Below, piece by piece: positions 3,128-34,141 of a stretch of 46,432 bases of DNA. A model generated the notes under the pieces. That model ran no database searches, was not told where the DNA came from, and saw nothing but the letters and a program-made list of their open reading frames with translations. The translations under genes and the position numbers were made by a program. Position 1 is the first letter of the stretch, and the number at the start of each line of letters is the position of its first letter. Source of the stretch: a virus; the IMG/VR virus record IMGVR_UViG_3300033388_003269, positions 1 through 46,432 of that record; one strand, 5' to 3'.

Positions 3128-6100
3128 TTATTTAAAATTAGCTGCGTTTTTGAATGTTTGGAAATTTTCTTTAATTTTAGGTACACCTGCAGCAACTGTA
3201 GTTTCTATATCCCATTCTTGGTAATTATCATTATGTCCTTCCGATACTTTAATTTTAGCTAAAGTATCTTTAAAATAAGTAGTACTCATTTGGAACATAG
3301 TTTGATAACCAATTTTTTTATTAGTATCGGTTTGTAAACCGTTTTCTATCATACCAAAAGAAACTAACCCTTCGTAATCAAGTTCTGGTGGCGATTGGTA
3401 TTTCTCGAAAACTGATTTTATTTTACTATAAGGAACACCAGAACGATTTTTACCATCACTATTTATAAGACTTAACCCAGCTTCCGATTTTTTAGCGTAT
3501 TGTTGTCTCCATACATCCACAAAACCTTCAGCTAATTTACTTTGGTTAGTTCCATACAAATTGTTTATATCAGATTTTTTGACACCATTTTTAGCTACAA
3601 TATTACCAGGCCAATTCTTAGTAAGGTTTTCTGATTTTATAGTATATTTTGTTTTTTTACCATTTCTTTTCCATAAACTATAGTGTTGTGCGGCTCCAGA
3701 TGCACCTTGTTGCCAAGCTAAATAAGTAAACAACTGATAATCACTCACACCGTATTCAGATTTTGATGCTCCAGGTCCGTTAAGTTCTGTTTGAGAATCT
3801 GGGGATATAGCTGCGTCACTAGCTACAGCATCACCAGTAGGACTAGTTACATTATCATCATTTATTGCCCCTGGATTACTAAATGGGTATTTGTAAACTT
3901 TTTCCCTTTCAGAGGACTTAAGTGGTGGGTAAGGTAAATTGAATTTTTCTATAACTTCTTTATATGGTCTCCAATAACTTTCTAAAAATTCGTCTTTTAT
4001 TTGAAAATGATGAAATTCGTTCATAGTTAAATTCATACCACTAGGTGGTTTTCTAGATGTTATCTTACTCATATCTATATTAGGTATATTTCTACAATTT
4101 TTTGTTTTTTTACTACCAGAACACCAACCATAGAAAGTGGCTCCCCATGTGATTTGGGATTTCCACGGTTCTTGTGTTGTTATAAACTCAAAAATGGATT
4201 TTACGAATTCTACATCCTGTACAGCTGTTATATTACCATCTATATAACCATATCTTTTTTCTCCAGGAAAAGAATCTTTTTTATACGCATCACCTAAAGT
4301 TACTTCACTACCATCATCTTGTTTAAATGTACCTAAGAATTGTACATCTATAGCCAATCCCGCACCATGTAATGATTTAGTATCTCTATTAGGACCACCT
4401 TTTACTGTTTGTTCTAAAGATCTGGTAACTCCATTCCACCCAAAGGCCCAATTTTTACTTGGGTACTTAGTTATTCTAAAATTATTATAATCATCTATTA
4501 TTTTCTCTAAGAATGTACCCGCTAAACCTAATCTTTGATTTGCTATATATGTATTTCCACCTGACTTAAGATACAATCCTTCCGATCTATCTATAACTAT
4601 ACCAGATGCATCCCCTAAATTAGAATTACCTATTTGACTGCCACCACTTCTTGAGGTACTAATAGATTTTCTACCACCTGCTGGTGTTTGTGTCGGTGAT
4701 ATTTTAAATGTAGAAATAAAATCTTCTACTATAGGTACAACAGCCCTAGGTACTCTATCACCAGTAAAGGTGGTTTTCATATTATGGGGTCTAATACTAT
4801 GTTTAACCTCCCTAATTAAATAAGCTCCATAAAACATAGGTACGTTGGTTAGCTGGAAATACTGTAATGGTTGTATCATCATATTACCTAAACCTTCTAC
4901 GGTACAACTATAACTTCTATTTAAGAATATGGGGTATAAGGATTGGGACTTGGCTACAAAACCACCACTTCCACCTTCTTGACGGCTATTAGCTAACATA
5001 TCCATAGCAACCATCGCTTCTTGTGTGTTTTTATATTCCGCTTGGTCTAAATTAATTCCTTGGAAGTGACTTTGTGTATCACTACCAAAGCCAACCTTAA
5101 ACCCAACCACATTACCTTCAGTTAATGGTGAAGTTTCATCATCTAAGTTAACACCATCTCCACCTTTTTCTTTTTTTGCGTTTTTAGCAGTTTGTAAAGA
5201 GGTTAAACAAGTAGCGTCTTCTTTATTAATACTTAAATCTAATTCTTGTGAATTACCACCAACATATTGTGCTAAAAAGTGTGGTCCACCCATGTTTTTA
5301 ACTGTATCAGAAAAAACGTCTTGTTCATACAATGGGCTGAACATCCTACTTATAACATCATTTTTAGTTCTATTATTATCTTGTGCGTATTTGTTTATAC
5401 CAGAAGTTAAATCTACGTATGAAGCTAATGGGAAGAAATTAAAATTACTCTTGTCACAGACATCCGAACATACACCGAATATTGAGTTAGTGGAGTTGTT
5501 AAATAAATTTAAAACAACATCTAAATTTACTAAAGCTTTATCACCTATATCATTATTAATTCTATCAACAAAACTAAAATGGTCAATTAACAATCTATCT
5601 GGGCCTATAGGATTAAAGAACCTTTTTTTACCTAAATCAGTACCATCTGAAGCTGATATCCACTTATCATATAATACTTTGAATGAACGATAAATACTTA
5701 ATCTAATATCATCGTCCTGATTAGCTCCCAAAGCTTCCGCGTTTAAGTCTTGTAAGCTTTTATCTTTTATTTTTTCTAATAAATCAATATTTAAGTTAGC
5801 ACTTCTAAATTCACCAATGAAACCAGCTGTAAAAGCTAATAATTCTTGTTTAGAAAATCTAAAATAATCATTAGTAGTTTCTGTAAGATTACCATTCGAG
5901 TCCTTCTTTAGTGGAAACTCAGCTGAAAATGTTCTAGGTGTGGTGGATGTTAATATATAATAACTATTAAATATAGTGTTGTATAATTCTTGTACGTTCT
6001 CATTAGTCAAAATTGGACTTTGTTCTTTAACGGTGAAACCTCCTGCACTATTAACACTTTCTGGTGTTGGTTTAGATCCTATTCCTAATCTAAATAAATT

Positions 6101-9100
6101 TTTCCATTCTATTAGTGGTTTCGGTAATTTAGAAATACTTTGTTCGTCTAACTCAACATCTTTATATGTGACTTTTTCTTCCTCAGTAGTTGGTACAAAT
6201 ACCGTTGGAGCATCACTTAATTTAGTACCCGCTTCGTCTAGCATTAATGGGTAGGTTAATTCTTTACTAAATACACCAAATCTGTTTTTAACGTTAGTGT
6301 TTGGAAAATTAAGTGGGTCAATAGTTTTTAAGACTTGGTCTAATTCACTAACTTCACCATAATTATTGAAGTCACCAACAAAATCTTCAAATTCTTTTAT
6401 AAAAATTTCTTTTACAGATGTAGGTAAGAACCATATATCTGGGCCTATTGGTGTGTAACCTCTTAAGTATCCAGCGTCTTTTAATTCTAAAATGTATCTA
6501 GCATCTATCGAATCAGAACCACTCACAGTTGAATTATTTTCATTTGTGTTATTGTCTTCCGATGTTTCTTCACTTAATATTAAAACCTTAAACTTTCTTC
6601 CTTGCTTGGCTTTAAATGGTAAGTCTGTTCTGACACTAGTCATGTCTTCATAACTTGGTGTTCTACCTTCATATGAAATGGCGGGGTCGTATTTACCTAT
6701 ATATCTATATAGATTATCTGATTCAGTATCAATTTCAAAACCAGGTTCAAAATCAACTACTTTAGCTATTAAATTTCTTTTATGTTTATGTTCGTTTTCT
6801 TCCACTGAGGCCTCCCCAAAATAAGCTTTTGTTTTATAGGAAGAATACTTAGTGAAAGTAAAAGTATTATTACTAATAGTATCTTGTGATAAATTAACAA
6901 TAAGACTTTCTACATAAAATCTACCGTAATCCCATTCGTAGTTGATGATATCTGTTTCATCACTCCAATTTTGACCAGGTTCTATTATTACTTGCCCACA
7001 AGCTACCTTACCTTGAGTTGAGTTACCTGAAGAAGATGCTTGTAATTGAGCGGTTTGTGGTGTGTATACTTGTTGGGGTGATGGGGGTGCGTCTTCATAA
7101 ATTTCTTGGTCTGTAATTTCTTTTACAAATTCACAATTTATTGTTTCACCGTCTGATTTTGTGAATTTTTTATTGTTTAAAAGATTTTCTAATTCAGTAT
7201 ATGTTTTTATTTCTATGGTTAAGTATTCTAGTGAATCAACCTCACTGGTTTCGACTTCACCATTAGGTTTAGCTACTAAACTCTCTTTTTTTGGGATTTT
7301 ATCTTTCGATGTGTTGTAAAATCCCATTCTACCATTCTCTATCATAGAATAGTTATTTGCACTATTTACACTTGTTGACTCTTCTAAAGTACTACCTTTA
7401 AGTTTATAGAGTGATTCATTCTCATAATGACACAACATAGAGAACCTAGTAAAACCTTCTTCAGAACCACCTAAATATTCATTAGCCTCTAATTTAGCTA
7501 GGACTGTACCAGCACCTATTTTTTCTATCTCACTGTTATAAGTCTCTTGTGCTGCTTTAGATAGTTCTTTTGTTATGTTAGCTTTAGCGGATTCACTATA
7601 ATCGTTTAGTTTAGCAGTTTCCGTGGCTATCGCGGATTCTAAACTTTCCGCTAGTTTACCAACTTGTACCATACCTGTTGTATATCTAATGGATTGGTTG
7701 GTGTATCTTAATAACCTAGCGTTATTATTAGCGAAAATGGGTGTAAATATACGGTATTGTCTTTTAAATGGGTTTTGAACTCCTTTGTCTTTAAAGAAAT
7801 CATAAGCATGTATCATACCTGTATTAACCACTGGCCATTCGTCAGCTTGTGGGAAACAAACAATTGGGTTTTTACCATCTTTATTTCTATTAATACTTCC
7901 AATAAAAGAAGCTGTTGGTGGTCTAACTCCGTAGTTAGTTATATAACTCCCTGAGTCAATTAATTTAGATTCATCATTAGTTGTTATCCAATTTTCAAAA
8001 TCTAAATAAGTTTTACCACCGACACCGTTATTGTGTTCTACTCTTTTTGGTACTAAAGGGAAATTAACTGGGTCAACACCACCTGTGATTTTTGAGTCCA
8101 TATTCCACTTTGGATCGTCTGATAATAACAATCCACTTTCTCTCATTCTCCACAATACTGCACCTAACAGTAATACTGAGTGTCTAGGTAATTCTATACT
8201 CATAGATGATAAACTTAAAGCCCCCTGTTGTCCTAGATTTTTTAAAGAACTAGAGTAAAGACCAGTCCAAGGTTTGTGGTATTGGTTTGCTAAAAATAAA
8301 TAACCTAAAGACCCTTTCCAAGCTTTTGTTTTGTTATAAGCCGTGGATATGTCTTCTTGGATTATGTCTCCATCACTATTTCTTAAAATATCGAAATCAG
8401 TTTTGTTTTGGTTTGTTAATATTTGTTTTCTAGGTGTGGGTATACCGTTTTTTTTCTCCAAATCTTTACTGTAGTTCCAATCATCCATGTAATTACCCCC
8501 ACCCTCTTGTGAGAATCCGGCTGGGAAATATTTAGATGTGGTTGCCCAACTATCTAGGTCGTTCTGAACACCCATGTAAAATTGTTTATCTGAAGTCTCT
8601 TGTGAGTCAGAAGATAAACCTTTTTGGGTGTTCATGGAACCACCGCCAAAGAAGGAGTAGTACTGTTTTCTAACATTAGAACCAACTTCATCTGAGGGTA
8701 AATTGTGTTTCCAAAATGGTATGTCGGTTATTGAGTTACTAACATTTTCAGAATTACCGTTATGTTGTAAATCATTAAATGTGGAAATAGTGGGAACAGA
8801 TGAAATGGTTTCATCTGTTAGAGATTTTAGTATGGAGCCCTGTAGAGCAAATCCAGGTGCGTACACTGGTGGTGGAATTGTGGGTACTGTTGGTGGTGGT
8901 TCTGGTTCCTCTTGTTGTTCATTTGCTGCTTGACTAACTGGAAGTTGGAGAGTTTGGATATCGACCGCATATTGTGTGTATAAAGCATCTGCCTCATAAA
9001 CCTGAATGTTACTAAAATCAAGATCCAAGTCTTCGTAGTTAACTGGTGCTTGTGATCTACTTGTAATTGACTCCTTATAATCTTTAGGTGAAAAATATGT

Positions 9101-12100
9101 TTCAACAAAACCTAATGAATAGTGTGTTTGGTATTCTTTTTCCTGCAAAGGTGAAAATGACTGAGATTCTAGGAGGTCAAAATTATACCATGTGTTAGAT
9201 TTATTATAAAAATCTAAAGCTGTCCAACCCCAATTTACCGTAGCGAAATTACTATTTTTATACCAATATTTTAAGTCCCTTGAATTTTTCTTGTTTCTAT
9301 ATTCTGCTAAATCTTTAGAATATCTATAAGCAAAGTCACCACCCCATTTAGCTTTGTGAAAAACATTAGTCCAAGAGTCATAATCAAATTGTTTATCTGG
9401 AAAAATATCTACAGTTAAAAACTTATCTAAAATAGATAAGTTACTATTAGTGTAATTGTTGTATTGCCAAGGATTGGTATTTGTACCGCCTTCTAATGAT
9501 ATTGAGTCCTGTTTCCAACCCCCACGATATGGTAACAAATTTCCTGAAACGTATAGACCCTTTCCATTGAAGTGATACCCAACTTTTATTTGGTATGATA
9601 AATCATCTTCATTTGCATCTGATATTTTCGATGGTGTTTTTTCATAACCTGTCATTTTTACTAACCTTCTACTAGCATCTATACTGTATTGACTTTTAGT
9701 ATCATTAATGTTTTGAACATCAATTCCATATCTACCAAGCTCACCTTTTAGTTCAAAAGATTTTTTAAAAGTACTATCTTCACTTATCCCAAAACCCTTT
9801 CTACCAGATTTATTTTTATACCAATTTTTTGTTATAGAAGATCCATTACCATCAATATCAAAACCGTTTTCAGTAGCGTTATCAAATCTATTTAGTCTAA
9901 CTAAATCAGAACCATTCATTGTGTGTATGTCAGGTGTAAGTACTACTGGTCCACCATTTGACCTACCCATCCTATTTAAAACTATTGGTTTATCGTATCT
10001 ATAAGCTTCGTTAAGTAAATCTTCATATATGTCATTACCCGTTATACCTAATAACTCAATTATTTTTTCTTGTAGTTCTTTGAAGTTAGAGGTTTTATTC
10101 ATTATAGAACCTAAGAGTTGAACATTTTCTATAGAGTTATAAACATTTTGTGCCTCTATCGCTCCCAGCGTCCTCCATGTCTGAAGTTGATTAGTGTTTA
10201 TTTTTATATTAGGGTATTGATTTGGTTTAGACAGTTCGGTGGAGGTTAATTCTTGTTTCTTTGAAAGTTCCTCACCAGTTGTTTTTTCACTGACTGTATT
10301 TAACTTTATTATTTTTTCATCTAATACTATTGTACTTGTATCTAATATGTCGTCACCGTACTTATTAAACCAATCGTTTATTGCAGTCCCATGATTCAAC
10401 CCATTTACTTTTTCCGACTTACCACCACCGCCAATAATGGTAGCTTGTAATGTTTCATAGTTATTCGGACTATTATCTCCCCCAAATAAACTTATCATTC
10501 CAGGTGAACCCCATAACATAAACGTGTTTTGCCACTTGTTTGAATTGTTAATTTGTGTCGTATCTAAAGAAGGATCTATCAAACCTATTCTCCCACCTGT
10601 AGTTGTATTTTTAGTAATAGCTAACCCACCAGCAGAGTACCCAATAAATATTTGTGAATAAGCTGACTCAAATTCTGTTGAAAAATCTACTGTTGTGTTT
10701 GATAAAGATAACTTTCTTTTATTATTTTCCTCACCATAGAAAATAGAAAAAACATCTTGTAAATTCTTTAAAGTATTTTGTTTATTATTAGTAGTTCCAG
10801 CAGCCATTACAATAAAAGACTTGTCTTTAACATTTTGTGGTATCTGATTAAACTGCTCTTGTCTTGATATTACACTTTCCAATCCAGCCCAAAAATAGAT
10901 AATTCTTTTTGTATAAAAAATGGGTTCTGATATTATAAATAAATCGGTATCACCATTATTTGTTAGTTTTTCTGTAAAAAGTGATTTATCTACCGTACTT
11001 ACGTTAAAACCAGATGCTGAGTCGGCGTTAGTTTTTAAATAGTAGACTCTATCGTCTACCGAACTAACCAATTCTGTAGAGTCATTTAATAAAGGTTTTA
11101 CCTCACCACTATTATATATAAGATTTGTTAAAGCATCACCATTTGGGTCCTTTCCCGCTCGGTCTCCACTATAATTAGTAAAAGACCCTACACCCATTGG
11201 GCTTCTGGGTTTCCCTGGTATGATAGGTTGTATATAATTTGGGTATCCTAAAATAGAGTCGTCACGATTGATGATAGCACCTAAATCACTACTCCCCCAT
11301 TGTTTTGGGACAAATGGTACACCCATAGAAAAATATGGTGTAACTCTAGCATAATTAATTCTTTCATATATTGGGAAACCTTCTCCGAGTTGTACGTTAT
11401 CCCTTTTTACGACTTTTTCATTTCCTTGAGAATCAGTAAATGTTTCGGTGATAGTGATTGGTTCTGGGTTTTTTGCTTCATTTATTTGGTATGAATGGTG
11501 TATACCTCTTAAACCTAATGTTTTTTGTGCATCTTTACTTGCTGCAGATATTATAGATGTATTTATGTAATTAGAGTTAGCACTTGTAACATTTGTTAAG
11601 GTTATAAACCTTTCACCTAAAGCTTTATATATACTATCTAAATCAGATAAATTATAATAACTATTATTACATTCCTTGGTACCCGCTGGTGTTTCCATAG
11701 CGTTAACTGGTATATAGTTATCTCTACCAGGTATGTTATCGTAAGGGTCTACCTCTGGGTTATCTTCTTCAACTGCTGCTTCAATATCTTTTTGCATTTC
11801 TGTGTAAGCTTTCAAAAAGTCTTCCACAAATTTTACTTCTGGCCAATTAGCTGCTTTTGGGTCCACCCCTGGATAAACTTCAACATCCTTTTCAACCCCA
11901 TCTATTTCTTTTGTTTGTATAAAAGTAGGCCACGCAAACACAGTATTTGAAACTCTTTCATTATCTTCTCCTCTGTATCTGTATGTATCAGATTCTACTT
12001 CACTATGGAATACTTCCGCGTCATAAGATACCTTCCTCAATAATTCTAAAAATAAATCGGTATTACCAATTAAAGTTGTAAAGAAACTTCTAACTGTAGG

Positions 12101-13459
12101 TATAAAACCTATCGCTGATTTTATTTTTTGATTAGCAGCTTCTTTAAACCTAACTTTTGAATCTTCTGAGATAGCTGATATTTCAGACCTTTTAGTGTTT
12201 ATTATGGTATCAAGTTGGCTTAAATCTAAAGATAATAGATTATCACCTTCTGTTACTAGTAATATTGTACCAATATTTAATTCTCTAACATTTGTTATAC
12301 TACCCTCCGCTAAAACTTCATTGAAGACTTCTACCTCTATGTTTATTAAACCTAAAGAACCAAAATAAGTTGCGTATAGTTCATTAAACTCACCCGTTTT
12401 TATACCTGTATCTCCACCACCCGCAATACCATAAGAAAGTAGTGACCCATCAACAGTTCCACCCAAGGATTTCCATTCTTTTTTTAATTCATTTATTTTT
12501 TCATCTATATTGGTTAAAGTAGAGGATAGATCGTCTAATTTTTCTACCTCAAAAAGTTCTGTAGAATTTTGTATTTCAGCTATAGCCCCTTCATCTGAAT
12601 TACCTTGTCCAGTTAATTCTTGTAGTTTTTTTACGTAATTAAATATTGTTATGGGTCTACCATTGTTGGCGGTTATTGGGTTAAAATTTGCTGTACCTTG
12701 GTTATACCCCATTTCTTTGTAGTATTTTAGGTAGTTTTGGTATATGGAGGTTAATACCGCGTCACTACCCTCCATGTATGGAGCGGCCATAACATAACCT
12801 AATAATATATCTGATAAAAAGGCGTAGGAGTAAGCGTAAAATTCAGCCTTAGATTTATAGTTACCAGTACCCGCATCAAAACTAGTTGTGAAAGATTTAA
12901 CAGACAACCAGTATACTACTGGGTCTCCATAATAACCTTTTACCGTTAGTTCAAAAACTGGGTAGGGTTGTAAAAAGAATGCTGCGTAAGGAGAACAACT
13001 ACCTTGTTCAAATAAAGTAGCTCCCCTTATATCTTCAAAATCTATGGTTATGATTGGCCAAATAGCTGGTTTTAGATTTATGTCTATATTGGTCATACCA
13101 AAAGTTTCTAAATCTTGACCTAGTTTAGAATCTACACTACTTATTTCAGTCCAATTGGTTGATAAAAAGGAAGTACCTAGTGGTGCTTCACCTACTTGAG
13201 TTTGTTTTCCGTTTAAAAAATTTACTTCTAAAACTTTTTCATCTGCCTTACTATGTACTAAAGATTTTTGTTTTACACTAGCCTTTAAAGTGGCATAAAT
13301 GATAAAGTTTTCTTGGTCAACACCATTGTTTGCTATAGCACCCGCTGGATCTAAAACAGTTAAGTTACCGTATTCTTTACAGTACTGTTTAAATTGGTTT
13401 TCAACACCGTTTAACTTATTTATCTCAGAACAATAAGCTCTTTTTTTATCATTCGCCAT
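3128..13459 (-). CDS. Giant baseplate hub-like protein with C-terminal peptidoglycan-cleaving domains
   Basis: At 3443 aa this is the largest gene in the window. Residues about 100-215 (TIDFEDIRGATLFEQG... ELTVKGYYGDPVVYWL) look like a beta-rich tail-hub barrel. Near residue 2850, YSCTVEGLGNMMIQPLQYFQL followed by FYGAYLIREVKHSI resembles the C-terminal half of gp27/gpD-type hub proteins. The 2600 residues between contain Pro-rich linkers near 1523 (EPEPPPTVPTIPPP) and 2136. Residues about 2960-3160 hold an M15-type peptidase with zinc signatures SLHGAGLAID (about 3030) and HHFQI (about 3151). From about 3225 another domain starts with YLAWQQGASGAAQHYSLW, resembling phage tail muramidase or transglycosylase modules. 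I infer a hub that digests peptidoglycan during injection. It overlaps the upstream LysM gene by 11 nt. The middle is unassigned. Confidence 0.75.
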   Translation of the reverse strand: MANDKKRAYCSEINKLNGVENQFKQYCKEYGNLTVLDPAGAIANNGVDQENFIIYATLKASVKQKSLVHSKADEKVLEVNFLNGKQTQVGEAPLGTSFLSTNWTEISSVDSKLGQDLETFGMTNIDINLKPAIWPIITIDFEDIRGATLFEQGSCSPYAAFFLQPYPVFELTVKGYYGDPVVYWLSVKSFTTSFDAGTGNYKSKAEFYAYSYAFLSDILLGYVMAAPYMEGSDAVLTSIYQNYLKYYKEMGYNQGTANFNPITANNGRPITIFNYVKKLQELTGQGNSDEGAIAEIQNSTELFEVEKLDDLSSTLTNIDEKINELKKEWKSLGGTVDGSLLSYGIAGGGDTGIKTGEFNELYATYFGSLGLINIEVEVFNEVLAEGSITNVRELNIGTILLVTEGDNLLSLDLSQLDTIINTKRSEISAISEDSKVRFKEAANQKIKSAIGFIPTVRSFFTTLIGNTDLFLELLRKVSYDAEVFHSEVESDTYRYRGEDNERVSNTVFAWPTFIQTKEIDGVEKDVEVYPGVDPKAANWPEVKFVEDFLKAYTEMQKDIEAAVEEDNPEVDPYDNIPGRDNYIPVNAMETPAGTKECNNSYYNLSDLDSIYKALGERFITLTNVTSANSNYINTSIISAASKDAQKTLGLRGIHHSYQINEAKNPEPITITETFTDSQGNEKVVKRDNVQLGEGFPIYERINYARVTPYFSMGVPFVPKQWGSSDLGAIINRDDSILGYPNYIQPIIPGKPRSPMGVGSFTNYSGDRAGKDPNGDALTNLIYNSGEVKPLLNDSTELVSSVDDRVYYLKTNADSASGFNVSTVDKSLFTEKLTNNGDTDLFIISEPIFYTKRIIYFWAGLESVISRQEQFNQIPQNVKDKSFIVMAAGTTNNKQNTLKNLQDVFSIFYGEENNKRKLSLSNTTVDFSTEFESAYSQIFIGYSAGGLAITKNTTTGGRIGLIDPSLDTTQINNSNKWQNTFMLWGSPGMISLFGGDNSPNNYETLQATIIGGGGKSEKVNGLNHGTAINDWFNKYGDDILDTSTIVLDEKIIKLNTVSEKTTGEELSKKQELTSTELSKPNQYPNIKINTNQLQTWRTLGAIEAQNVYNSIENVQLLGSIMNKTSNFKELQEKIIELLGITGNDIYEDLLNEAYRYDKPIVLNRMGRSNGGPVVLTPDIHTMNGSDLVRLNRFDNATENGFDIDGNGSSITKNWYKNKSGRKGFGISEDSTFKKSFELKGELGRYGIDVQNINDTKSQYSIDASRRLVKMTGYEKTPSKISDANEDDLSYQIKVGYHFNGKGLYVSGNLLPYRGGWKQDSISLEGGTNTNPWQYNNYTNSNLSILDKFLTVDIFPDKQFDYDSWTNVFHKAKWGGDFAYRYSKDLAEYRNKKNSRDLKYWYKNSNFATVNWGWTALDFYNKSNTWYNFDLLESQSFSPLQEKEYQTHYSLGFVETYFSPKDYKESITSRSQAPVNYEDLDLDFSNIQVYEADALYTQYAVDIQTLQLPVSQAANEQQEEPEPPPTVPTIPPPVYAPGFALQGSILKSLTDETISSVPTISTFNDLQHNGNSENVSNSITDIPFWKHNLPSDEVGSNVRKQYYSFFGGGSMNTQKGLSSDSQETSDKQFYMGVQNDLDSWATTSKYFPAGFSQEGGGNYMDDWNYSKDLEKKNGIPTPRKQILTNQNKTDFDILRNSDGDIIQEDISTAYNKTKAWKGSLGYLFLANQYHKPWTGLYSSSLKNLGQQGALSLSSMSIELPRHSVLLLGAVLWRMRESGLLLSDDPKWNMDSKITGGVDPVNFPLVPKRVEHNNGVGGKTYLDFENWITTNDESKLIDSGSYITNYGVRPPTASFIGSINRNKDGKNPIVCFPQADEWPVVNTGMIHAYDFFKDKGVQNPFKRQYRIFTPIFANNNARLLRYTNQSIRYTTGMVQVGKLAESLESAIATETAKLNDYSESAKANITKELSKAAQETYNSEIEKIGAGTVLAKLEANEYLGGSEEGFTRFSMLCHYENESLYKLKGSTLEESTSVNSANNYSMIENGRMGFYNTSKDKIPKKESLVAKPNGEVETSEVDSLEYLTIEIKTYTELENLLNNKKFTKSDGETINCEFVKEITDQEIYEDAPPSPQQVYTPQTAQLQASSSGNSTQGKVACGQVIIEPGQNWSDETDIINYEWDYGRFYVESLIVNLSQDTISNNTFTFTKYSSYKTKAYFGEASVEENEHKHKRNLIAKVVDFEPGFEIDTESDNLYRYIGKYDPAISYEGRTPSYEDMTSVRTDLPFKAKQGRKFKVLILSEETSEDNNTNENNSTVSGSDSIDARYILELKDAGYLRGYTPIGPDIWFLPTSVKEIFIKEFEDFVGDFNNYGEVSELDQVLKTIDPLNFPNTNVKNRFGVFSKELTYPLMLDEAGTKLSDAPTVFVPTTEEEKVTYKDVELDEQSISKLPKPLIEWKNLFRLGIGSKPTPESVNSAGGFTVKEQSPILTNENVQELYNTIFNSYYILTSTTPRTFSAEFPLKKDSNGNLTETTNDYFRFSKQELLAFTAGFIGEFRSANLNIDLLEKIKDKSLQDLNAEALGANQDDDIRLSIYRSFKVLYDKWISASDGTDLGKKRFFNPIGPDRLLIDHFSFVDRINNDIGDKALVNLDVVLNLFNNSTNSIFGVCSDVCDKSNFNFFPLASYVDLTSGINKYAQDNNRTKNDVISRMFSPLYEQDVFSDTVKNMGGPHFLAQYVGGNSQELDLSINKEDATCLTSLQTAKNAKKEKGGDGVNLDDETSPLTEGNVVGFKVGFGSDTQSHFQGINLDQAEYKNTQEAMVAMDMLANSRQEGGSGGFVAKSQSLYPIFLNRSYSCTVEGLGNMMIQPLQYFQLTNVPMFYGAYLIREVKHSIRPHNMKTTFTGDRVPRAVVPIVEDFISTFKISPTQTPAGGRKSISTSRSGGSQIGNSNLGDASGIVIDRSEGLYLKSGGNTYIANQRLGLAGTFLEKIIDDYNNFRITKYPSKNWAFGWNGVTRSLEQTVKGGPNRDTKSLHGAGLAIDVQFLGTFKQDDGSEVTLGDAYKKDSFPGEKRYGYIDGNITAVQDVEFVKSIFEFITTQEPWKSQITWGATFYGWCSGSKKTKNCRNIPNIDMSKITSRKPPSGMNLTMNEFHHFQIKDEFLESYWRPYKEVIEKFNLPYPPLKSSEREKVYKYPFSNPGAINDDNVTSPTGDAVASDAAISPDSQTELNGPGASKSEYGVSDYQLFTYLAWQQGASGAAQHYSLWKRNGKKTKYTIKSENLTKNWPGNIVAKNGVKKSDINNLYGTNQSKLAEGFVDVWRQQYAKKSEAGLSLINSDGKNRSGVPYSKIKSVFEKYQSPPELDYEGLVSFGMIENGLQTDTNKKIGYQTMFQMSTTYFKDTLAKIKVSEGHNDNYQEWDIETTVAAGVPKIKENFQTFKNAANFK

Positions 13460-13769
13460 TATCTTTTAAAAACTTTTCTATTTTTTGTTGGTAGTCTTGT
13501 AGTGAGTCCATTAGTGGAAAGGGTATTCTTAAAGTACTACCTTCTGGTATATCAAACTCCATACTACCATATTGTGGGTTAGCTAACATTATTAACCAAC
13601 CGTAAAATGGGGTACCATATTTTTCACTAGATATTTTATCTAGTCTATTATATTTGCGCCAAGTTACACTTAAATCAGTGTTTTTTTTTGTTAGCTTAAT
13701 AAAGGGTATAAAAGTCATTTTATCCCCTCTTTTGAAATTTCCGTACCTATCAAAATAACTTTTAGACAT
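13449..13769 (-). CDS. 53: LysM-domain baseplate wedge protein, gp53-like
   Basis: This 106-aa protein is dominated by a LysM-like fold at residues about 35-92. It shows RLDKISSEKYGTPFYGWLIM, then LANPQYGSMEFDIPEGSTLRIP. The family logic is D-x-I-x-x-x-Y-G, then W, then an A-N doublet, then a G-x-x-L-x-I-P end. T4 gp53 and gpX-type tail proteins share this domain and size class; gp53 is a baseplate wedge component. Its position between two giant baseplate proteins fits. The final 11 nt overlap the start of the hub gene. A late-type motif lies 17 nt before the ATG. Confidence 0.7.
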   Translation of the reverse strand: MSKSYFDRYGNFKRGDKMTFIPFIKLTKKNTDLSVTWRKYNRLDKISSEKYGTPFYGWLIMLANPQYGSMEFDIPEGSTLRIPFPLMDSLQDYQQKIEKFLKDNGE

Positions 13770-13825: not shown

Positions 13826-16800
13826 TTAAAAACCTATATCATCAAATGATTCGTTTATTATTTCTGGTACGACATAACTATCATTGTATAAATCAAATTC
13901 AAAAGATTCACTTATAGTTTTAAATCTTATATCACCCACCTTTTGTCCTGAATTTACTGTTACAGTATCTTCAACTACTTCTCTAGATATACTCCAATTT
14001 ATTGTTAGTTTATATTTACCGTTAATAGCTAGGTTTTCAAATATATCTACAGCTAATTTTTGAACGTCAACTTTACTAGTAATATTTAAATTAGTGGTAT
14101 CTATTTTAGTATATTCATCGAATGGTTGTTCATTTGTTAGGTCAGCAGTTTCATAGGTCATATAATCTTCTATATTACTCTGGTTACCTTCAATACCAGC
14201 GGGAGTAATATACTCTAAACTTTCTAAAGATTGTATATACCAACCTTGTTCATCTCCATCGACATTAGTGTCAAGTGTTGCTTCTGTGGTTGTAATACCA
14301 CCAGTTCCATCTGGTTTTGCGTATAATGGATTAATGTCAAAACTTCCTGTTTCTAAAAATACTGTTTTTTGCCCCACTTCTTCTGTACGAATTTCATACT
14401 GATCTTCTAAATAAACTTCATCGAAAGATGTGGTGATGTTTATATAACCTGCACTATCAATATCACTTTGAGAAATAAATCCACTGTTAGGATCACCAGG
14501 TACAAATCCAACTAAACCAGATTGGTCTCCTAATACGGTATCTACATCTAAATTATTGGCTTCAGCGTTTGTTATTGTATTACCACTAGAATCTGTTAAT
14601 ACTATGTTTTGTTTATTTATTGATTCTGAGGATGGATTTAAAATATTTTTATTTTCAGAAAAAGCTAATGTGTCAATATCACTAATAGTTTCTTGTACAT
14701 TTTTAGTTTGGTCAGCTTCTAAGTCTTTAATTAAATTTGCTTGTGGGTTAATATAGTCAGCTCCTAGAACTTCTAAATCAGCATCTGATTGTGTTTTAAA
14801 TCCACCAAAACCAACTCTACTACCACCAACCGTAACAGATTTAGCATTCTGTTCATCTTTTAACTCTTCTAAAGAAGTTATATCACCCGTTTCTAAATCA
14901 TAATATCTTCTAGGGTTATAGACCGAAGTGTTCGCGAAAAAGTTAAACGAAACAGCGTTCTGAAGTTGTCTTATTGGTCCGTCCAAACTAGAACCACCAA
15001 TAATACTAAAGTTTAAGTCTACTTTAGCTATCATAGGTTGTACACCAACACCCTCTGGGTTTAAATCCCACTGTAATGGTTCGTAGTTAATATTCATTGA
15101 ATCTGGTACTATTTTAGTATAGTAAAAATCACCTATTCTCAAAACTAAGATAGGTGGTTTTCCAAAAGCCATATTTTGTGTTCTATTATCACTATCTCTA
15201 AGACTAGGACCCTGCCTCATACATTGTTGTAGGAAAGTTAATCTAGAATTTAATCCTTCTGGTGTCATAGAATGGAAAGCGGGATGAAAAAACTTAACCT
15301 TCTCTTTGATACTATCGTATAAGAATGGGTCTGATACTTTTATTTTTTCAAAATAATCACACTCCCTAAATAACCTCTGTACTATTCTTTTAGTTATAAT
15401 TTCTCTTACTTCATCGTCCTTCACTAGTTCTGAACCATCACCTTCATTTGCGTTTGTGATGTCAGTGTTTTCTGTCTTATCAGCTTCTCTATTAGCTTGT
15501 GCAAGTAATCTACCCATAGACAATATCTGATTTTGTCCTTCTACAGATTCCACATATTTTCTGTCTTTTCTTTTTAATGGTAATGGTTCCCCTACTAGTT
15601 CTGGGACAGGATATGTAACTGCCTTTATATCAAAATCTACTACATCATCCAACAAGGTCGTACCCGATGCAAGAACTGGGTCTTGTTTTGGGAATGGTTT
15701 TATTATTGGTAAACGTTCTAATTCTAAATCAAAAAGATCTTCTTCTTCAGCTTTTTCTTTTTGTTTTTTCTCCTCTAGTTGATTGATGTACCTAGTGTTT
15801 TCAAAAACCCTAATAGTTACGGTTCTATCTTTTTTAGCTGAGTTTGAAAAGATTGATGAACTACTAGAGGTAGCTACTTGTGCCCCTTCTGCTTGTTCGT
15901 TCTCAATACCTTGGCCATCTTCATCTACTGATTGAGCGTCCCAACCGTTCCAAGATTCACCATTTGCGGTAACAACCCATCTATTATTAGAAAGTTCGGA
16001 GTCTGTACTAGGTTTATTTATTTCGTCTATCGCGACATACCAATAACCAGCTTTCTTTTTTCGACTGTCATATTTATAAACCGTTTCAGAACATTTAGTT
16101 AGATCTATGTTGGGTAAGTTTTTTTTATAATAAGGTGATGCTGGTAAGGAATCCTGTATTGTACCTGAAACAACTTTATCACCACCATCTTTACATTTAT
16201 ACCCATATTCACCAGTTGTAAAATTCTCTGGTATGTATGTATAACCAGAACCACCAGACTCACCTTTTTCTTTAACTCTCTCTTTTACATAGTTAGCGAC
16301 TCTAGTAACTCTATCTATTGATAATATCTGATTATAGTTATTGTTTGATAAAGCACTACAGTATCCTTGGAATTCTACACAATAATTTTGTCCGTCTTTT
16401 GTGGCTAAAAAATCTATTAAAGCATCTATACCTGGTCCGTTACCATCTTCTGCTTTTAACCACTCTTTTTCATTTAACATTAGGTAATCACCAGTTTTAG
16501 TTTTTGATACTTCATTTTGTACACCAGTATCATACTCTACACCTAATTCCACTTCAATACTTCTACCAGGTACTTTAGGTCCTTTTCTACCTTTAATACC
16601 ATAATCACTTGTAGCGTTTCTAAAATAGAAAGCGGCTTTTTCTATAGGTGGAGTTATTACAGGGGGTTCCTCTGGTGGTTTTGGTATAACTGGTGGTTTA
16701 CAACACTCTTCCGATCTACTTCCGTCACCACATGGACAACCTGTTTCTTCCTCTACTACTGTTTCCTCTATTATTATTCTATCTATTTCTTCACGACTAT

Positions 16801-19066
16801 AATAATCCATTATATCCACCCCACAACCAGCAAAGAAATTTGTTATTCTATCTTCTGCTTCGTTTTTTAAATCATTTAAAACAGATGGGTGGTCAGTTAT
16901 TATACTCCAACTTAAAGTACCTTTTCTTTCACTGTGGTTATATGTATATATCGGTTCTGCTCTACCAATAAAAACTGTTGAATCCCAATTAGCTGTTGTA
17001 TTATCAGTAAAATTAATGTCATAAGGTGGGAACCACATTATCCTACCACCATTAGGACCTAATTCACAAGGTTCTAAAGCTATTTTTTCTGGTGCTTCAG
17101 TCCAAGCCAAGTTCTCAATAGAAAACATATATCTTTTAACATCATTACCTATGTTTATAGTTTTATTACCAGAACCACCTATAGGTGAACCTACAAAGTT
17201 GTCGTCTGTTGGGTGTGGAGCTATTTTAACATGTCCTGTCTCCTCTAAAGTACTTTGATATTGACCAAAAAATGGGCCACTCGCTGTGTCACCTGGTCTG
17301 ATTTTACCACCCGCTCTATATAGTTTATCTCTTCTAATTAAGTCGTAATGGTTTTGATATGGGTTTCTAGTATTCCATGATCGACAATAGTGGTCACTAT
17401 TTTCTCCACCCCTTACTAAGTTACCCTTAGATACATTTGTCATCCTAGGAACATTCTGTAGTTTACCGTCACCAATATCTGTTTGTACATCTTTTAAGTT
17501 ACTATTACTATCAAAACGACCAATAAATTTAGCACCCCCTCTATAACCGTTAGAATCTTCATTATTAATCATTTTTTGTGTAAAATCTAATAAACCTCTT
17601 TTAGCTACTTCTTGTTTTCTATTTTGCCAATAGAACATTCCTCTAGTTCCTGGGGTTGTGTGTGAGAAATTATTTAAACTATCATCACTATCCTCAATAG
17701 ATGGTTTTAGTGTTGTTTTATTCGGATAATAATCAACGTCAGCCCCTGGTATATTGTATACTGGTGTTTCAAGTTCTAAATTAGTGAATGTTGAATTGGG
17801 ATCTAGATTGTCTATAGATGGGTATTGTCCGTCTACCCCCATAGTCACAAATGGGTCTGAGGGTGTTGTTAGTCTATCTGTTTTTGGTTGTAAAGTTTGA
17901 TCACCTTTAGTTGTTAAATCCCTTAACCAATTACCCAATCTACGTTCTCTAGTAGATTCGTCTTTATTTAATTTTTTATTTAGTTTTAAATAATTGTTAG
18001 GTTTTTTCTTACCCTCACCAAGAGATTCTGCTCCACGAGCGCTTAATGTATCGGCTCCCGCATTTTCTAAATCATAACCTTTTGTTAATAATTCTGGTGT
18101 GTACTTACTAGAGTAAACATTTTTATATAAAATTTTTCTTTGTGCTTTACCAGTGAAGTCTAATAAGTCCGATTGAAAAGCGTTACTTCCTAAGTCAGGA
18201 TTTTTACCACCTTTTAGTGGACTTCTAGGCCAATTAAAACCACCTAAACTAGCTGCGAATTGGGCAGCTTTACCGAGTATACCTTTTCTTTTAGTTATTG
18301 TATAATCTGGGAGAAAAATACTTTGTCCAGCTAATAATCCTAAAGGATCTAAATTTAATCTACCAACAGTATCATCAACAAAGTTTAATTTAACTCTATT
18401 TGTTAATTCTTCGATTCTTCTTTCCTTAGCTGTATCTTGTAGTGGTGATGGAAAATTAATAAAATTCTCAGGACTAAAACCTAGACTTCTGGCTATTACT
18501 GGTCCTATTACATCTCCACCAGCATCTGATGGGTATTGTTTATAACCTGTAGATTCTAGTGGTTGGTCTGGTTCATTATAAGTTTCTACGTATTCTGGTC
18601 CGTACTCATTGTTGGTTAAATTGTTAAAATTTCTAACTGAAAAAACATCTGTTGAAAATCCAGCACCTTCTACCCAAGAATCTATAGAACCAGGGTCTTC
18701 CAAAGCTCTTGTTGTCACAGAAAAAACCTCCTCATCTGTTTGGGAACCAATAAAAGGTTTTTCGTTTGTAAATAAATTTCTTTTTTTATTGTCTGGTCTA
18801 GGTGAAGTATTGTCGTTTACTGAACTAGGTAAGAAAGCTACTTCAGATAAATTAGGTAAATCATTTACCGTATCTGATGGATTAAATAATAATGGTGCGT
18901 AAACATTTAAACCATAATTGTCTATTCCATTACTAGCTAAAACTGGATCTAAACCAGGTAAATTGTGGTTTAGTACATAATCCCTAAAGTCTTGAACTTT
19001 GATTGGTCCTAGTGTTTGACTGTTGAAACTATTTATGTTGTAATTTTCGGGATTTATAGAAGGCAT
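13826..19066 (-). CDS. Giant baseplate/tail structural protein with OmpA-like domain
   Basis: This is a 1746-aa protein. Residues about 640-760 contain MFSIENLAWTEAPEKIALEP and GGRIMWFPPYDINF, then FIGRAEPIYTYNHSERKGTLSW, a tail/baseplate-like beta segment. A Cys/Pro-rich hinge follows at about 770-800 (CPCGDGSRSEECCKPPVIPK). Residues about 860-960 resemble an OmpA-type peptidoglycan-binding domain (VEFQGYCSALSNNNYNQILS, DRVTRVANYVKE). Near residue 1340, MNINYEPLQWDLNPEGVGVQ and DLNFSIIGGSSLDGPIRQLQ look like another baseplate assembly segment. The OmpA-like part suggests contact with the host cell wall. The gene has its own late-type motif 16 nt upstream and lies between the tape measure and the LysM/hub genes. 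Exact T4 equivalents (gp6, gp7, gp10) cannot be assigned. Confidence 0.7.
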   Translation of the reverse strand: MPSINPENYNINSFNSQTLGPIKVQDFRDYVLNHNLPGLDPVLASNGIDNYGLNVYAPLLFNPSDTVNDLPNLSEVAFLPSSVNDNTSPRPDNKKRNLFTNEKPFIGSQTDEEVFSVTTRALEDPGSIDSWVEGAGFSTDVFSVRNFNNLTNNEYGPEYVETYNEPDQPLESTGYKQYPSDAGGDVIGPVIARSLGFSPENFINFPSPLQDTAKERRIEELTNRVKLNFVDDTVGRLNLDPLGLLAGQSIFLPDYTITKRKGILGKAAQFAASLGGFNWPRSPLKGGKNPDLGSNAFQSDLLDFTGKAQRKILYKNVYSSKYTPELLTKGYDLENAGADTLSARGAESLGEGKKKPNNYLKLNKKLNKDESTRERRLGNWLRDLTTKGDQTLQPKTDRLTTPSDPFVTMGVDGQYPSIDNLDPNSTFTNLELETPVYNIPGADVDYYPNKTTLKPSIEDSDDSLNNFSHTTPGTRGMFYWQNRKQEVAKRGLLDFTQKMINNEDSNGYRGGAKFIGRFDSNSNLKDVQTDIGDGKLQNVPRMTNVSKGNLVRGGENSDHYCRSWNTRNPYQNHYDLIRRDKLYRAGGKIRPGDTASGPFFGQYQSTLEETGHVKIAPHPTDDNFVGSPIGGSGNKTINIGNDVKRYMFSIENLAWTEAPEKIALEPCELGPNGGRIMWFPPYDINFTDNTTANWDSTVFIGRAEPIYTYNHSERKGTLSWSIITDHPSVLNDLKNEAEDRITNFFAGCGVDIMDYYSREEIDRIIIEETVVEEETGCPCGDGSRSEECCKPPVIPKPPEEPPVITPPIEKAAFYFRNATSDYGIKGRKGPKVPGRSIEVELGVEYDTGVQNEVSKTKTGDYLMLNEKEWLKAEDGNGPGIDALIDFLATKDGQNYCVEFQGYCSALSNNNYNQILSIDRVTRVANYVKERVKEKGESGGSGYTYIPENFTTGEYGYKCKDGGDKVVSGTIQDSLPASPYYKKNLPNIDLTKCSETVYKYDSRKKKAGYWYVAIDEINKPSTDSELSNNRWVVTANGESWNGWDAQSVDEDGQGIENEQAEGAQVATSSSSSIFSNSAKKDRTVTIRVFENTRYINQLEEKKQKEKAEEEDLFDLELERLPIIKPFPKQDPVLASGTTLLDDVVDFDIKAVTYPVPELVGEPLPLKRKDRKYVESVEGQNQILSMGRLLAQANREADKTENTDITNANEGDGSELVKDDEVREIITKRIVQRLFRECDYFEKIKVSDPFLYDSIKEKVKFFHPAFHSMTPEGLNSRLTFLQQCMRQGPSLRDSDNRTQNMAFGKPPILVLRIGDFYYTKIVPDSMNINYEPLQWDLNPEGVGVQPMIAKVDLNFSIIGGSSLDGPIRQLQNAVSFNFFANTSVYNPRRYYDLETGDITSLEELKDEQNAKSVTVGGSRVGFGGFKTQSDADLEVLGADYINPQANLIKDLEADQTKNVQETISDIDTLAFSENKNILNPSSESINKQNIVLTDSSGNTITNAEANNLDVDTVLGDQSGLVGFVPGDPNSGFISQSDIDSAGYINITTSFDEVYLEDQYEIRTEEVGQKTVFLETGSFDINPLYAKPDGTGGITTTEATLDTNVDGDEQGWYIQSLESLEYITPAGIEGNQSNIEDYMTYETADLTNEQPFDEYTKIDTTNLNITSKVDVQKLAVDIFENLAINGKYKLTINWSISREVVEDTVTVNSGQKVGDIRFKTISESFEFDLYNDSYVVPEIINESFDDIGF

Positions 19067-19095: not shown

Positions 19096-21909
19096 TTATC
19101 GATTTTGTTCTTTCATTCCTTTAACAACTATTTTAGTTATCTCAGATTTAAATGTTGGGTCACTCATAATATTATTTAATGATATAGATGAACCACCCGA
19201 ACTTAAGTTAATGGTACCACTAATATTAACATTAACATTACCACCAACAGAACTAGAACTTCCACCTCCTGGTTGTCCTATAGAAACAACGTCTTTAGGT
19301 GCTAAACCATACATTTGACCTTTAGCTGTTTTAATTACGTTACCATCAGGTAAAACAGCTCCATCCGCCATCCTACTAGTACTACCTAAGGCTAGTTTAT
19401 TTTCATTTATGTTAGATTTAGCAGTTGCCATATCATAATCCTTCATACCTTTGGTAGTTAATTCTTTATACATACTTCTACCAAAACCTATAACACCACC
19501 AATAATACCACCCAAAGCAGTACCTACACCAGGAATGATACTACCTATCATAGCTCCTGTAGCGGCGTCACCAGCTGTTGTACCTATAACACCTAACGTT
19601 TTACCCATTGCGGTATCTGGGTCATCTAAGAAAGAACGACCAATATCAGCACCCATACCGACTAAACCTAAACCAGTGAAAGCTCTCATACCCTTCATAG
19701 CTGAAGCACCAAAACTCATACCACCCCTCATAGCACCAGCTCTACCAAACATAGTACCACTTCTACCAAATATACCCTGTAAACCTTTACTCATCCTGTT
19801 GTTACCCAACATTCTAATCAAACCTCTTCTACCTGCGGTAGACCTACCACCAGTTAACCCACCACCACGCATCATGTCCATAGGTCCTCCCCCCATAGGT
19901 CCTCCTCCCATAGCTCCCATGTTGGTTACGGTTACTAATTGTGGTGTACTTTTACCCATACCCATCAGACTAGATAAACCAGTCATCAAACCTTTTAATA
20001 TACTAGGGAATTTTATGAGTAATATAGCCGCTACAGCACCTCCAGCACCAAATGTTTCAGCAATCCATTTAGCCGCTTTCCACATTCCTGAGGCAATCAT
20101 ACCAGCAGCAGTCGCGAAAGTCTTTACAGTTTCCCCATTTTCTTTCCAAAACTTAGCAAACATTTCTTGACCTTTGGATATAATACCACCTAACTTCGCA
20201 TTGGCGTTTTTAATCCATTCAGCTGTTTTTCCAGCCATCTCAGTTAATTTACCAACCATTCCACCTAACATAGGTAAACCTTGAGATAAGAAAGGTTGTA
20301 CTACAGTAGTTAGGAAACCACCAAATTCCTGACCCATTTGAAAGACATTGTCACTTAGTTTAGCTAATCCTCCTCCTGAACCTAATTGGTCTAGTAGTTT
20401 ACCTAATGGTGAAGAGTCCATACCAGCAAAGAAAGACATAGCTAGATTTTTAAGGGACTCAAATATATTTTTTAACCTAGTCATAAACCCTTGGGATTGT
20501 TCGGCTCTCTTTTTAAGACTCGCATCTTGTGCCATTAAAGACTCTACTTGTTTTTGTGATAATCTAGATATATCAACCATTTTACCATCAACATCTACTT
20601 GGAATTTACCGTCTTTACTCAATTGAGCAATACTTTTAATAAATTCCCTACTTTCACCCTTTACTCTAGGATTTAACATTTTACCGATATCATTTCTTTT
20701 AGCTGAAGTTTTAGCGGTTTCAACTAATTCTTCAAAAGATATACCTGTTTGAGCAGCAACTTCTTTTAATTTTTGAAGTTGCATAGCTGGGATATCATAA
20801 GTACCATCACTTAATCTTGTAGCTACAGAACCAGCCGCTGATGCTAAATCTTCCATTAATTTAGCTGGATTGTTTCTAGCGTTAAACATTAATTGTATAG
20901 GGTCCGCCATTCTAGCGAAAGCTCCACCCATCATTTGAAGTGTTGCCGCGGTTTCAATCGCTTTTTCTGGTTCAAATAGTTGGTTAGCTAAATCTAGAGT
21001 AGCCCCCATGTCCATTCTAAGAGCCGCTGATTTAGCAGCCATCTTAGCCATACCTTCAACACCACCTTTGAATCTAACTGTTTGTGCTTTCCTTAAATTT
21101 TGTTGTAATATTTTTAAGGTTTTACCAGAACTAACACCCATTTTCTCAGACATATTAACAACGTCTTCAACGTAACCAGCAGTACTTTCAATGGACATAC
21201 CAAATACTTCCATACTAGCCGCCATTTGTGCTGCTCCTTGTGAACCTAAATTAGTACCTTTACTCATGTAAGCCATTGCTTTACCAGCACTAACTGTTAA
21301 AGGTATTAATCTACCAACTTCATCGACATAACCACCATAAGATTCTACTAATTCTTTCGCGTCTACACCAATTCTTTGTGTTACTAAAGCTGCTTTATAA
21401 GCGTTTTTACGTAACATATCGAACTGTTTACCCATCACACCTATGTTGACAGCAGTTCTTCTTATAACATCATCATTTTCTGAAAATTCTTTCCCTAGTT
21501 CTACAGCTTTTTTAGTTACCTTAGTTAAAGCTTTAAAGGTATCCCTACCTAAGGCTACCGCTAAATTTTTAACACTACCTACTTGACTAGATAAAGCTTT
21601 GGATAGAGCCTCTTGTTTTTTAAGTATATCTTCAGTGGCTTTCTTTTCTTGTTGTACCGCCTTTAATTTTTCTTGAGCTATTCTTAATTGTTCACCTTCA
21701 AGTTTAGTTATATCTTCTTGAAGTTTCTTCTCTTCTTTTTCTAACCTATTAAAATCTTTTTTAATCTTTCTTAGATCATTAGCAGCTTTTAAGGCATCTT
21801 TGGCTCCAACAGCAAAAGATTTAGTTCCTTTACTAATTGTCTCCGAAATTTTCTGTTGTGTATTTAGAAACTCTTTATAAGCGTTAAGATCTTTAGGATT
21901 AAATGCCAA
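19096..21909 (-). CDS. Tail tape measure protein
   Basis: This 937-aa protein has the standard tape-measure make-up. A long charged coiled coil covers residues about 45-110 (DLRKIKKDFNRLEKEEKKLQ...). A helical TMP-like region follows (about 120-440), with sequences such as GVDAKELVESYGGYVDEVGR and MAASMEVFGMSIESTAGYVE. Then come hydrophobic or amphipathic helices (about 590-680), a Gly/Met-rich basic stretch (about 690-760), a small-residue membrane-like segment (GAMIGSIIPGVGTALGGIIG) and a Ser/Gly C-terminus. Tape measures set tail length and are released through the tail. The gene follows an unknown 534-aa gene with a 20-nt gap and no motif of its own, so it is probably expressed as part of that transcript. 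Confidence 0.9.
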   Translation of the reverse strand: MAFNPKDLNAYKEFLNTQQKISETISKGTKSFAVGAKDALKAANDLRKIKKDFNRLEKEEKKLQEDITKLEGEQLRIAQEKLKAVQQEKKATEDILKKQEALSKALSSQVGSVKNLAVALGRDTFKALTKVTKKAVELGKEFSENDDVIRRTAVNIGVMGKQFDMLRKNAYKAALVTQRIGVDAKELVESYGGYVDEVGRLIPLTVSAGKAMAYMSKGTNLGSQGAAQMAASMEVFGMSIESTAGYVEDVVNMSEKMGVSSGKTLKILQQNLRKAQTVRFKGGVEGMAKMAAKSAALRMDMGATLDLANQLFEPEKAIETAATLQMMGGAFARMADPIQLMFNARNNPAKLMEDLASAAGSVATRLSDGTYDIPAMQLQKLKEVAAQTGISFEELVETAKTSAKRNDIGKMLNPRVKGESREFIKSIAQLSKDGKFQVDVDGKMVDISRLSQKQVESLMAQDASLKKRAEQSQGFMTRLKNIFESLKNLAMSFFAGMDSSPLGKLLDQLGSGGGLAKLSDNVFQMGQEFGGFLTTVVQPFLSQGLPMLGGMVGKLTEMAGKTAEWIKNANAKLGGIISKGQEMFAKFWKENGETVKTFATAAGMIASGMWKAAKWIAETFGAGGAVAAILLIKFPSILKGLMTGLSSLMGMGKSTPQLVTVTNMGAMGGGPMGGGPMDMMRGGGLTGGRSTAGRRGLIRMLGNNRMSKGLQGIFGRSGTMFGRAGAMRGGMSFGASAMKGMRAFTGLGLVGMGADIGRSFLDDPDTAMGKTLGVIGTTAGDAATGAMIGSIIPGVGTALGGIIGGVIGFGRSMYKELTTKGMKDYDMATAKSNINENKLALGSTSRMADGAVLPDGNVIKTAKGQMYGLAPKDVVSIGQPGGGSSSSVGGNVNVNISGTINLSSGGSSISLNNIMSDPTFKSEITKIVVKGMKEQNR

Positions 21910-23595: not shown

Positions 23596-23828
23596 CTAGT
23601 TCTTTTTCCACCACTACTAGATGATGTACTATTAGCTTTATCCATTTGTTTTTTTTCTTCATCAACCTCGTTTAGTAATTGTTGAATATAATTTCTTCTT
23701 TCCCATACTGGCATTGACAATACATCGTACCTACTAAACCCTATATGTTTGGTACACACATATAACTCGTTTAATAAATAATTTTTATAGTCCAAATTCA
23801 GGCCAAAGAAAGTCTGGTCCAAGGACAA
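23580..23828 (-). CDS. Small gp26-adjacent protein with TTG start or frameshift expression
   Basis: This frame of up to 82 aa contains YLLNELYVCTKHIGFSRYDV followed by LSMPVWERR, a pattern seen in small proteins encoded beside baseplate or tail-chaperone genes of T4-like phages. No ATG is available before the conserved region; candidate starts are TTG at 23828 and 23822. The frame is +1 relative to gp26, overlaps its last 44 nt, and stays open upstream only to a TAG at about 23838. It is therefore either initiated at TTG or made as a +1 frameshift extension of gp26. The C-terminus is Ser-rich then basic (GGKRTRRVST). An assembly role in the baseplate hub or tail is inferred from position only. 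Confidence 0.6.
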   Translation of the reverse strand: MSLDQTFFGLNLDYKNYLLNELYVCTKHIGFSRYDVLSMPVWERRNYIQQLLNEVDEEKKQMDKANSTSSSSGGKRTRRVST

Positions 23829-26680: not shown

Positions 26681-27169
26681 TTAAAATACGTGTATAGCTC
26701 TATCAAATCTTAGAGTAGCGTTAATATCAGCGACATCCGATGAACCATAATCTAAGTCGTTAAAGTTAACGTTTGTTAACATAGTTCCTTGTAGTATCCA
26801 TTTTTCAATGACAACACCTGTAGGGTCTAATAATTCTAACTCTACATCTTTTTTGTAACCTGCTGCATAACCCATACGACCTGTTACCGATTCTGCGTGT
26901 AAACGAACCCACTCCATAAGAGCTTGAGCCGCTGAAGGACCAATAGGGTCACGGAATGTTACATCGATACTTTCCCAATTAAATCTACCCGCTACATATG
27001 TCTCAGTGTTTAGGAATTGAATAGCCACCTCCTCTATAGAAATCGCTGGTCTAGAACCAGAAGCTACAAACCACTCTTGAATACCAAGAGGTGTAGGGAA
27101 TCTAAATATAAACCTGTTCTTTTTCTTTGGTTCGTAAGGAACAGGCATTCTCATTAATAAATCTGCCAT
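26681..27169 (-). CDS. 19: Tail tube protein (gp19)
   Basis: At 162 aa this protein is almost the same length as T4 gp19 (163 aa). It begins MADLLMRMPVPYEPKKKNRF. It then shows FRFPTPLGIQEWFVASGSRP, SIDVTFRDPIGPSAAQALME and FNDLDYGSSDVADINATLRF, which match the conserved core of T4-type tail tube subunits. Hexameric rings of this protein stack into the inner tube inside the sheath. It has its own late-type motif 34 nt upstream and a strong terminator downstream, as expected for a protein needed in high copy. It is separated from the sheath gene by about 9 kb of accessory genes, which is unlike T4. Confidence 0.95.
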   Translation of the reverse strand: MADLLMRMPVPYEPKKKNRFIFRFPTPLGIQEWFVASGSRPAISIEEVAIQFLNTETYVAGRFNWESIDVTFRDPIGPSAAQALMEWVRLHAESVTGRMGYAAGYKKDVELELLDPTGVVIEKWILQGTMLTNVNFNDLDYGSSDVADINATLRFDRAIHVF

Positions 27170-29584: not shown

Positions 29585-29596
29585 AAATCTTTTTTA

Positions 29597-34091: not shown

Positions 34092-34111
34092 ATAAAATAT
34101 TTATATTTATA

Positions 34112-34120: not shown

Positions 34121-34141
34121 CACTCTTTTTAATAAAAAATA

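Follow-up and report, generated by a model that had tools for sequence, protein, structure and literature searches.

Introduction

The hub ring of a contractile tail is normally compact. In bacteriophage T4, the hub protein gp27 (44.4 kDa; gp5 is 63.7 kDa) contains two homologous barrels in one chain, formed by residues 2-111 and by residues 207-239 plus 307-368, and its trimer is a pseudo-sixfold torus (PMC3004832). Enzymes can be built into such hubs: gp15 of Anabaena phage A-1(L) carries a lysozyme (residues 56-265), an endoglucanase (266-430) and a peptidase (736-899), two of which were shown to be active (PMC10966104).

Here we describe a variant of these enzyme-bearing hubs, giant and apparently split, encoded by a virus fragment of 46,432 bases (the window, by which we mean the whole stretch of DNA analysed). 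We consider it likely that this 3443-aa protein is the central baseplate hub, in the position of gp27, of an uncultured T4-like contractile-tailed phage, with its two barrels drawn apart and envelope-opening enzymes attached. No longer member was found in its hub subfamily, which is abundant and apparently undescribed, and a description of a comparable hub was not found in the open-access literature searched.

The giant hub resembles T4 gp27 (with gp5, PDB 1k28) in the fold of its C-terminal block, in a weak match of its N-terminal block and in its operon position as central hub. By contrast, gp27 is an enzyme-free protein of 44 kDa, whereas the giant hub has barrels ~2,600 residues apart together with enzymes, and a preliminary description of the locus was correct that its size is far beyond that of gp27 plus gp5. 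A-1(L) gp15 (PMC10966104, PDB 8kea), which ranks second among the Foldseek structural matches of the giant hub's C half, is alike in being a barrel hub with enzymes on both sides of the barrel region, a C-terminal peptidase and a LysM gp53-like partner; however, it has ~900 aa and nothing approaching 2,600 residues between barrels. Flavobacterium phage immuto has the operon order of the window, with the slot of the giant hub filled by immuto35A_237, a 938-aa protein annotated 'carboxypeptidase'. This protein likewise consists of a hub and then an M15-type domain (SPHGWGGALDF, WHFEYW), and its C-end motif matches the C block described below, but its hub part is just ~730 aa. Microcystis phage Mel-JY01 shows a similar order, with a 671-aa gene behind a gp53-sized gene. 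BLASTP of the giant hub against the immuto and Mel-JY01 hubs gave nothing significant.

Results

The tail operon and its relatives

The giant hub gene lies exactly where it had been claimed, at 3128..13459 on the minus strand (13459 -> 3128), and runs from ATG to stop as a single uninterrupted frame with no internal stops. It belongs to a T4-like contractile-tail operon, also on the minus strand, that runs in the order sheath (36295..39111; phrog_23, E 3e-49), tube (26681..27169; phrog_4542, E 6e-29), gp26-like baseplate hub assembly protein (23785..24600; phrog_150, E 2e-9), tape measure protein (19096..21909; phrog_23574, E 9e-5), a conserved 1746-aa protein in tube-initiator position (13826..19066), a 106-aa gp53-like baseplate wedge protein (13449..13769; phrog_7145, E 3e-6) and hub. 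The gp53-like gene and the start of the giant hub overlap by 11 bases. This location, after the tape measure and gp53-like wedge genes, is that of gp27/gp44/VgrG-type hubs. The 1746-aa neighbour stands at the same place in relatives, and we infer from its position that it is gp48/54-like. A stretch of this neighbour (residues ~881-928) resembles an OmpA-like peptidoglycan-binding domain below the cut-off (PF00691, E 0.02). A weak match between hub residues 535-607 and the upstream neighbour, seen with three relatives, disappeared on direct comparison.

Relatives in IMG/VR were reached through the tail tube of the window phage, not through the bare window hub. The tube has at least 600 relatives there; most of the contigs of 26 of these carry hub matches at both ends of a single ORF of ~1.9-2.6 kaa, and a scan with the N-terminal block found at least 566 relatives. 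Sixty-four non-redundant intact ORFs, selected because they contain both blocks in an uninterrupted frame, measure 1.3-2.8 kaa (median 2,122 aa, s.d. 226, longest 2,804), and the 3,443 aa of the giant hub fall far outside this range. Simple BLAST aligns every one of the 64 with residues 51-200 and 2601-2900 of the giant hub. Across 15 relatives, identity to the giant hub ranges from 33 to 48% for the N block and from 28 to 41% for the C block. Further, two proteins deposited in UniProt without described function match the N-terminal model structurally when compared as predicted models of chain segments: A0A8S5LAH1, named 'Lysozyme' (Myoviridae sp. ctPuP5; E 6e-26), and A0A6J5L837 (uncultured Caudovirales phage; E 7e-28). 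On these models, both probably belong to the giant-hub subfamily.

The two ends as probable hub halves

Since the two barrels of T4 gp27 are homologous, a split hub predicts one barrel at each end. The N block (residues 30-232; 12764..13372, minus strand), found in all relatives by alignment and BLAST coverage, contains a tube/hub-like barrel at 120-210. An AF2 model of the N-terminal region, built with 47 relatives, is ordered over most of residues 120-690, with strands at 120-128 and 136-143, helices at 144-162, strands at 168-174, 181-195 and 200-210, and then a long helical region; the mainly helical, conserved residues 401-625 behind the barrel (11585..12259, minus strand) are kept in most relatives. 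The C block (residues 2576-2912; 4724..5734, minus strand) was delimited by alignment, and its AF2 model is ordered at 2786-2902, with a strand and helix order much like that of the N model. Hub-like segments had earlier been proposed near residues 100-215 and ~2850, and the modelled barrels at 120-210 and ~2786-2902 bear this out. Confidence in the models is absent for most of residues 700-1200 and 2244-2510 and for the M15 and C-terminal domains.

In Foldseek comparisons with the PDB, the N model matched tube, Hcp, Dit, hub and baseplate chains almost throughout (best E 3e-3; T4 gp27 E 0.13), and hubs held most top ranks for the C model (probability up to 1.00, E 0.014-0.2); these E-values are modest, with query models of 1,200 aa that partly lack confidence, and none reaches E 0.001. 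Leading the C-model matches were hub or baseplate chains of Pam3, A-1(L), diffocin, a Neisseria tail protein, the PVC central spike, P1 and T4 gp27, the last (1wth_D) superposing at 2.1-2.2 A across 59 residues with probability 0.99. A profile of the C block also aligned with one built from four compact hubs (LR756508.1, immuto, Mel-JY01 and RM378), at their C-terminus (hhalign, E 2.2e-5), and the corresponding N-block profile gave no detectable match to them. Alignments of the N block, the C block and the middle gave no hits or spurious ones in PDB profile searches, and Pfam and PHROGs scans of the whole giant hub and its segments yielded nothing convincing. We therefore regard the C block as shown, by its modelled fold, to be a hub half, an identity that profile homology to compact hubs supports as well at the level of sequence; the N block, judged by modelled fold only, is likely the other half. 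To this extent the proposal that one very long chain unites both hub halves, with a cell-wall peptidase behind the second, holds, strongly for the C half.

The lack of a profile match between the N block and compact hubs leaves room for a tube- or Dit-like barrel of another role. The N block would then be a barrel of its own, tube-like or distal-tail, joined to a hub with both of its barrels in the C region, a reading with which the tail tubes, Hcp and Dit proteins among the N-model matches also agree. We find it unlikely: the C region models as one barrel only, strand and helix order is alike at both ends, as for the homologous barrels of gp27, and the compact hubs of immuto and LR756508.1 have, by eye, their first barrel-like region close to the N-terminus, with the C-block motif at the opposite end.

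The middle region

The preliminary description had left a huge unassigned middle between the hub halves. Family libraries indeed give no match there, but comparison with relatives revealed conserved blocks and a hydrolase-like module. The giant hub is collinear with its closest relative (L159, 2804 aa) over residues 8-642, 1096-1415, 1565-1821, 1834-2011, 2238-2386 and 2486-2974. Among these, residues 1565-1821 (7997..8767, minus strand) form a conserved middle block with 41% identity to that relative, and a motif, AYLFLNSLPL..HK.PYAW.LK.GS.WHRYK, is common to the relatives' middles. The extra residues of the giant hub relative to L159 are chiefly 643-1095, ~2012-2237 and the C-terminus.

Within the first of these extras lies an inserted module, residues 853-1035 (10355..10903, minus strand), which matches a 651-aa protein encoded directly downstream of the hub in another relative, L165 (32.5% identity, E 6e-18). 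Invariant between the two homologues are GYSAGG, GLIDPSL, WGS and GL.H..AI..WF..YG, and with them a G-x-S-x-G nucleophile elbow followed by Asp and then His (S942, D962, H1023). BLAST detected no match to residues 751-1050 in any of the 64 intact hubs of relatives. Profile searches of 853-1035 for an alpha/beta-hydrolase profile or fold were negative, and AF2 is not confident there; the motif order in two homologues provides a lead that the module may be alpha/beta-hydrolase-like. The conserved residues 401-625, the collinear blocks and this module speak against the earlier view of the middle as mere spacer. The L165 protein itself (L165:17859-19811) appears by eye to have a lysozyme-like N-terminus (AGRYQ), a serine-hydrolase-like middle and an M15-like C-terminus, the serine-hydrolase-like part being the one in common with the inside of the giant hub.

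A long middle with blocks collinear with the closest relative could alternatively replace a gp5-type spike, so that one chain would be hub plus needle, and in keeping with this no gp5-like gene could be identified in the window. PAAR proteins were not detected among 17 relatives. However, three large relatives have gpV/gp5-type OB-domain matches elsewhere, in frames of 316-449 aa; these matches are weak and below the cut-off, and they suggest a separate spike. With the alternative thus weakened, we hold a spike function for the middle to be quite improbable.

Reading-frame integrity and split hub genes

It is very improbable that the giant hub is an artefact in which an assembly or frameshift error has fused adjacent genes for the hub N part, the hub C part and a lysin, even with hub parts encoded as separate genes in some relatives: the 64 non-redundant intact relatives, picked for both blocks and an uncut frame, come from many metagenomes and each encode the two blocks in a single ORF (1.3-2.8 kaa), which excludes, for the hub itself, the assembly error that the preliminary description had raised as a concern; the closest relative is collinear through much of the middle; and codon-position GC (~0.42/0.37/0.21) is uniform across the ORF, so no out-of-frame segment has been fused into it.

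Several lineages do break the hub gene between the N and C blocks. L147 is split into 1055 and 1112 aa, yet is ~87% identical to the intact L148; L224 is split into 879 and 1008 aa; and L200 and L229, 54-57% identical to one another, are split at a common position. The most elaborate arrangement occurs in L139, L162 and L163, whose identity across 14.7 kb indicates one virus in three assemblies. Here (L139:2245-13967) a gene for a 1725-aa N half is followed by three tandem C-half genes of 642, 661 and 845 aa, 67-73% identical in their hub part (dN/dS 0.25-0.33), with a VanY, an unrecognised and a Phage_lysozyme2 tail. Because of the low dN/dS and the distinct tails, all three C halves look functional at the level of sequence.

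Three kinds of C half, together with the three-fold ring of known hubs, suggest, as speculation, a hetero-trimer. More broadly, and with considerable doubt, we propose that the hub ring may be a modular scaffold in which N and C barrels need not share a chain: the split C halves of this virus would co-assemble as a hetero-trimer with a different tool on each arm, and the window phage would achieve likewise by stacking enzymes in one chain.

Putative C-terminal enzyme domains

Behind the C block, residues 2951-3187 (3899..4609, minus strand) bear the signature of an M15-type peptidase (S-x-H3031, D3038, H3150/H3151), as had been noted from the sequence. The zinc-ligand motifs S-x-HGAGLA-x-D and E-x-HHF are invariant in five proteins, the giant hub and four phage homologues. 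The giant hub does not reach the curated Pfam profile cut-off for M15; among the homologues, P0005 comes close with 24.2 bits (cut-off 25), and PF13539 is matched at E 5e-5, slightly below the cut-off. When the giant hub was searched against phage records, the sole match was of the M15 part, in LR745206.1. Motif and homology thus support the assignment of residues 2951-3187 as a putative M15-type peptidase.

The last domain, residues 3188-3443 (3131..3898, minus strand), had been called muramidase-like, which our searches did not confirm: this domain matched nothing in Pfam, NCBIfam or the PDB, lysozyme-like families included. Of the two cell-wall-cutting activities proposed, the M15 peptidase is supported by motif and homology, and the muramidase was not confirmed; a serine-hydrolase-like module in the middle was found instead. 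Among 70 relatives, the tail behind the C block is M23 in 11, VanY in five, Amidase_2 in five and Phage_lysozyme2 in four, the rest being unrecognised, a variety that marks the C-terminal slot as a swappable hydrolase site. M15-type peptidases akin to that of the hub also occur after short leaders (e.g. MIIDEKYLREIIRSSIIKE) of the capsid-targeting-like kind described below for the window, as if head-packaged (L240:16-786 and L241:3872-4588).

A model for the giant hub

If the protein is a split central hub, its N and C barrels would, as a trimer, form a pseudo-sixfold ring that connects tail tube and spike. The ~2,000-residue middle would exit the ring past the helical region behind the first barrel and re-enter ahead of the second. 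Tail contraction would drive the hub through the envelope, where the attached C-terminal M15 domain and, in the window phage only, the serine-hydrolase-like module in the middle may open the envelope locally.

Hundreds of uncultured phages carry hubs several-fold larger than T4 gp27, yet shorter than that of the window. Enzymes are exchanged at the hub end or inserted between the halves that would form the ring, where some lineages break the chain. The size of insertion tolerated without loss of tail contraction, the existence of hetero-trimeric hubs and the envelope bonds cut can now be tested. Current profile libraries also overlook the hub modules, which are unannotated candidates for enzymes that degrade the envelope.

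Host and other features of the window

The host is probably a member of the Bacteroidota, as a best guess. Four GTDB genomes gave matches: two MAGs of Bacteroidota, one MAG of Christensenella and a single-cell genome of Prochlorococcus. Judged by the tail tube, phages of Microcystis, Rhodothermus and Flavobacterium are among the nearest cultured relatives, and a Shine-Dalgarno sequence is absent in 30 of the window's 31 genes.

A short repeat, TATTTATATAAAAA, occurs in 11 copies in the window at up to one mismatch (0.6 expected by shuffling), including 29591-29604, 41411-41424 and 43707-43720; three exact copies each end 6 bases ahead of a start codon. On the plus strand, opposing the tail operon, 24824-25663 and 41481-43304 encode a PepT-like peptidase (TIGR01883, E 1e-8) and an SNF2-type helicase (NF058637, E 3e-38), both below the cut-off. 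Finally, several unrelated proteins encoded at 30390-36220 on the minus strand share a similar kind of short N-terminal leader, for example MKNLIRKILKE, MRSKILKILKE and MKKYVITESQLNLVKSKLQE; these leaders resemble T4-type capsid-targeting peptides with a terminal (I/L)xE cleavage site.
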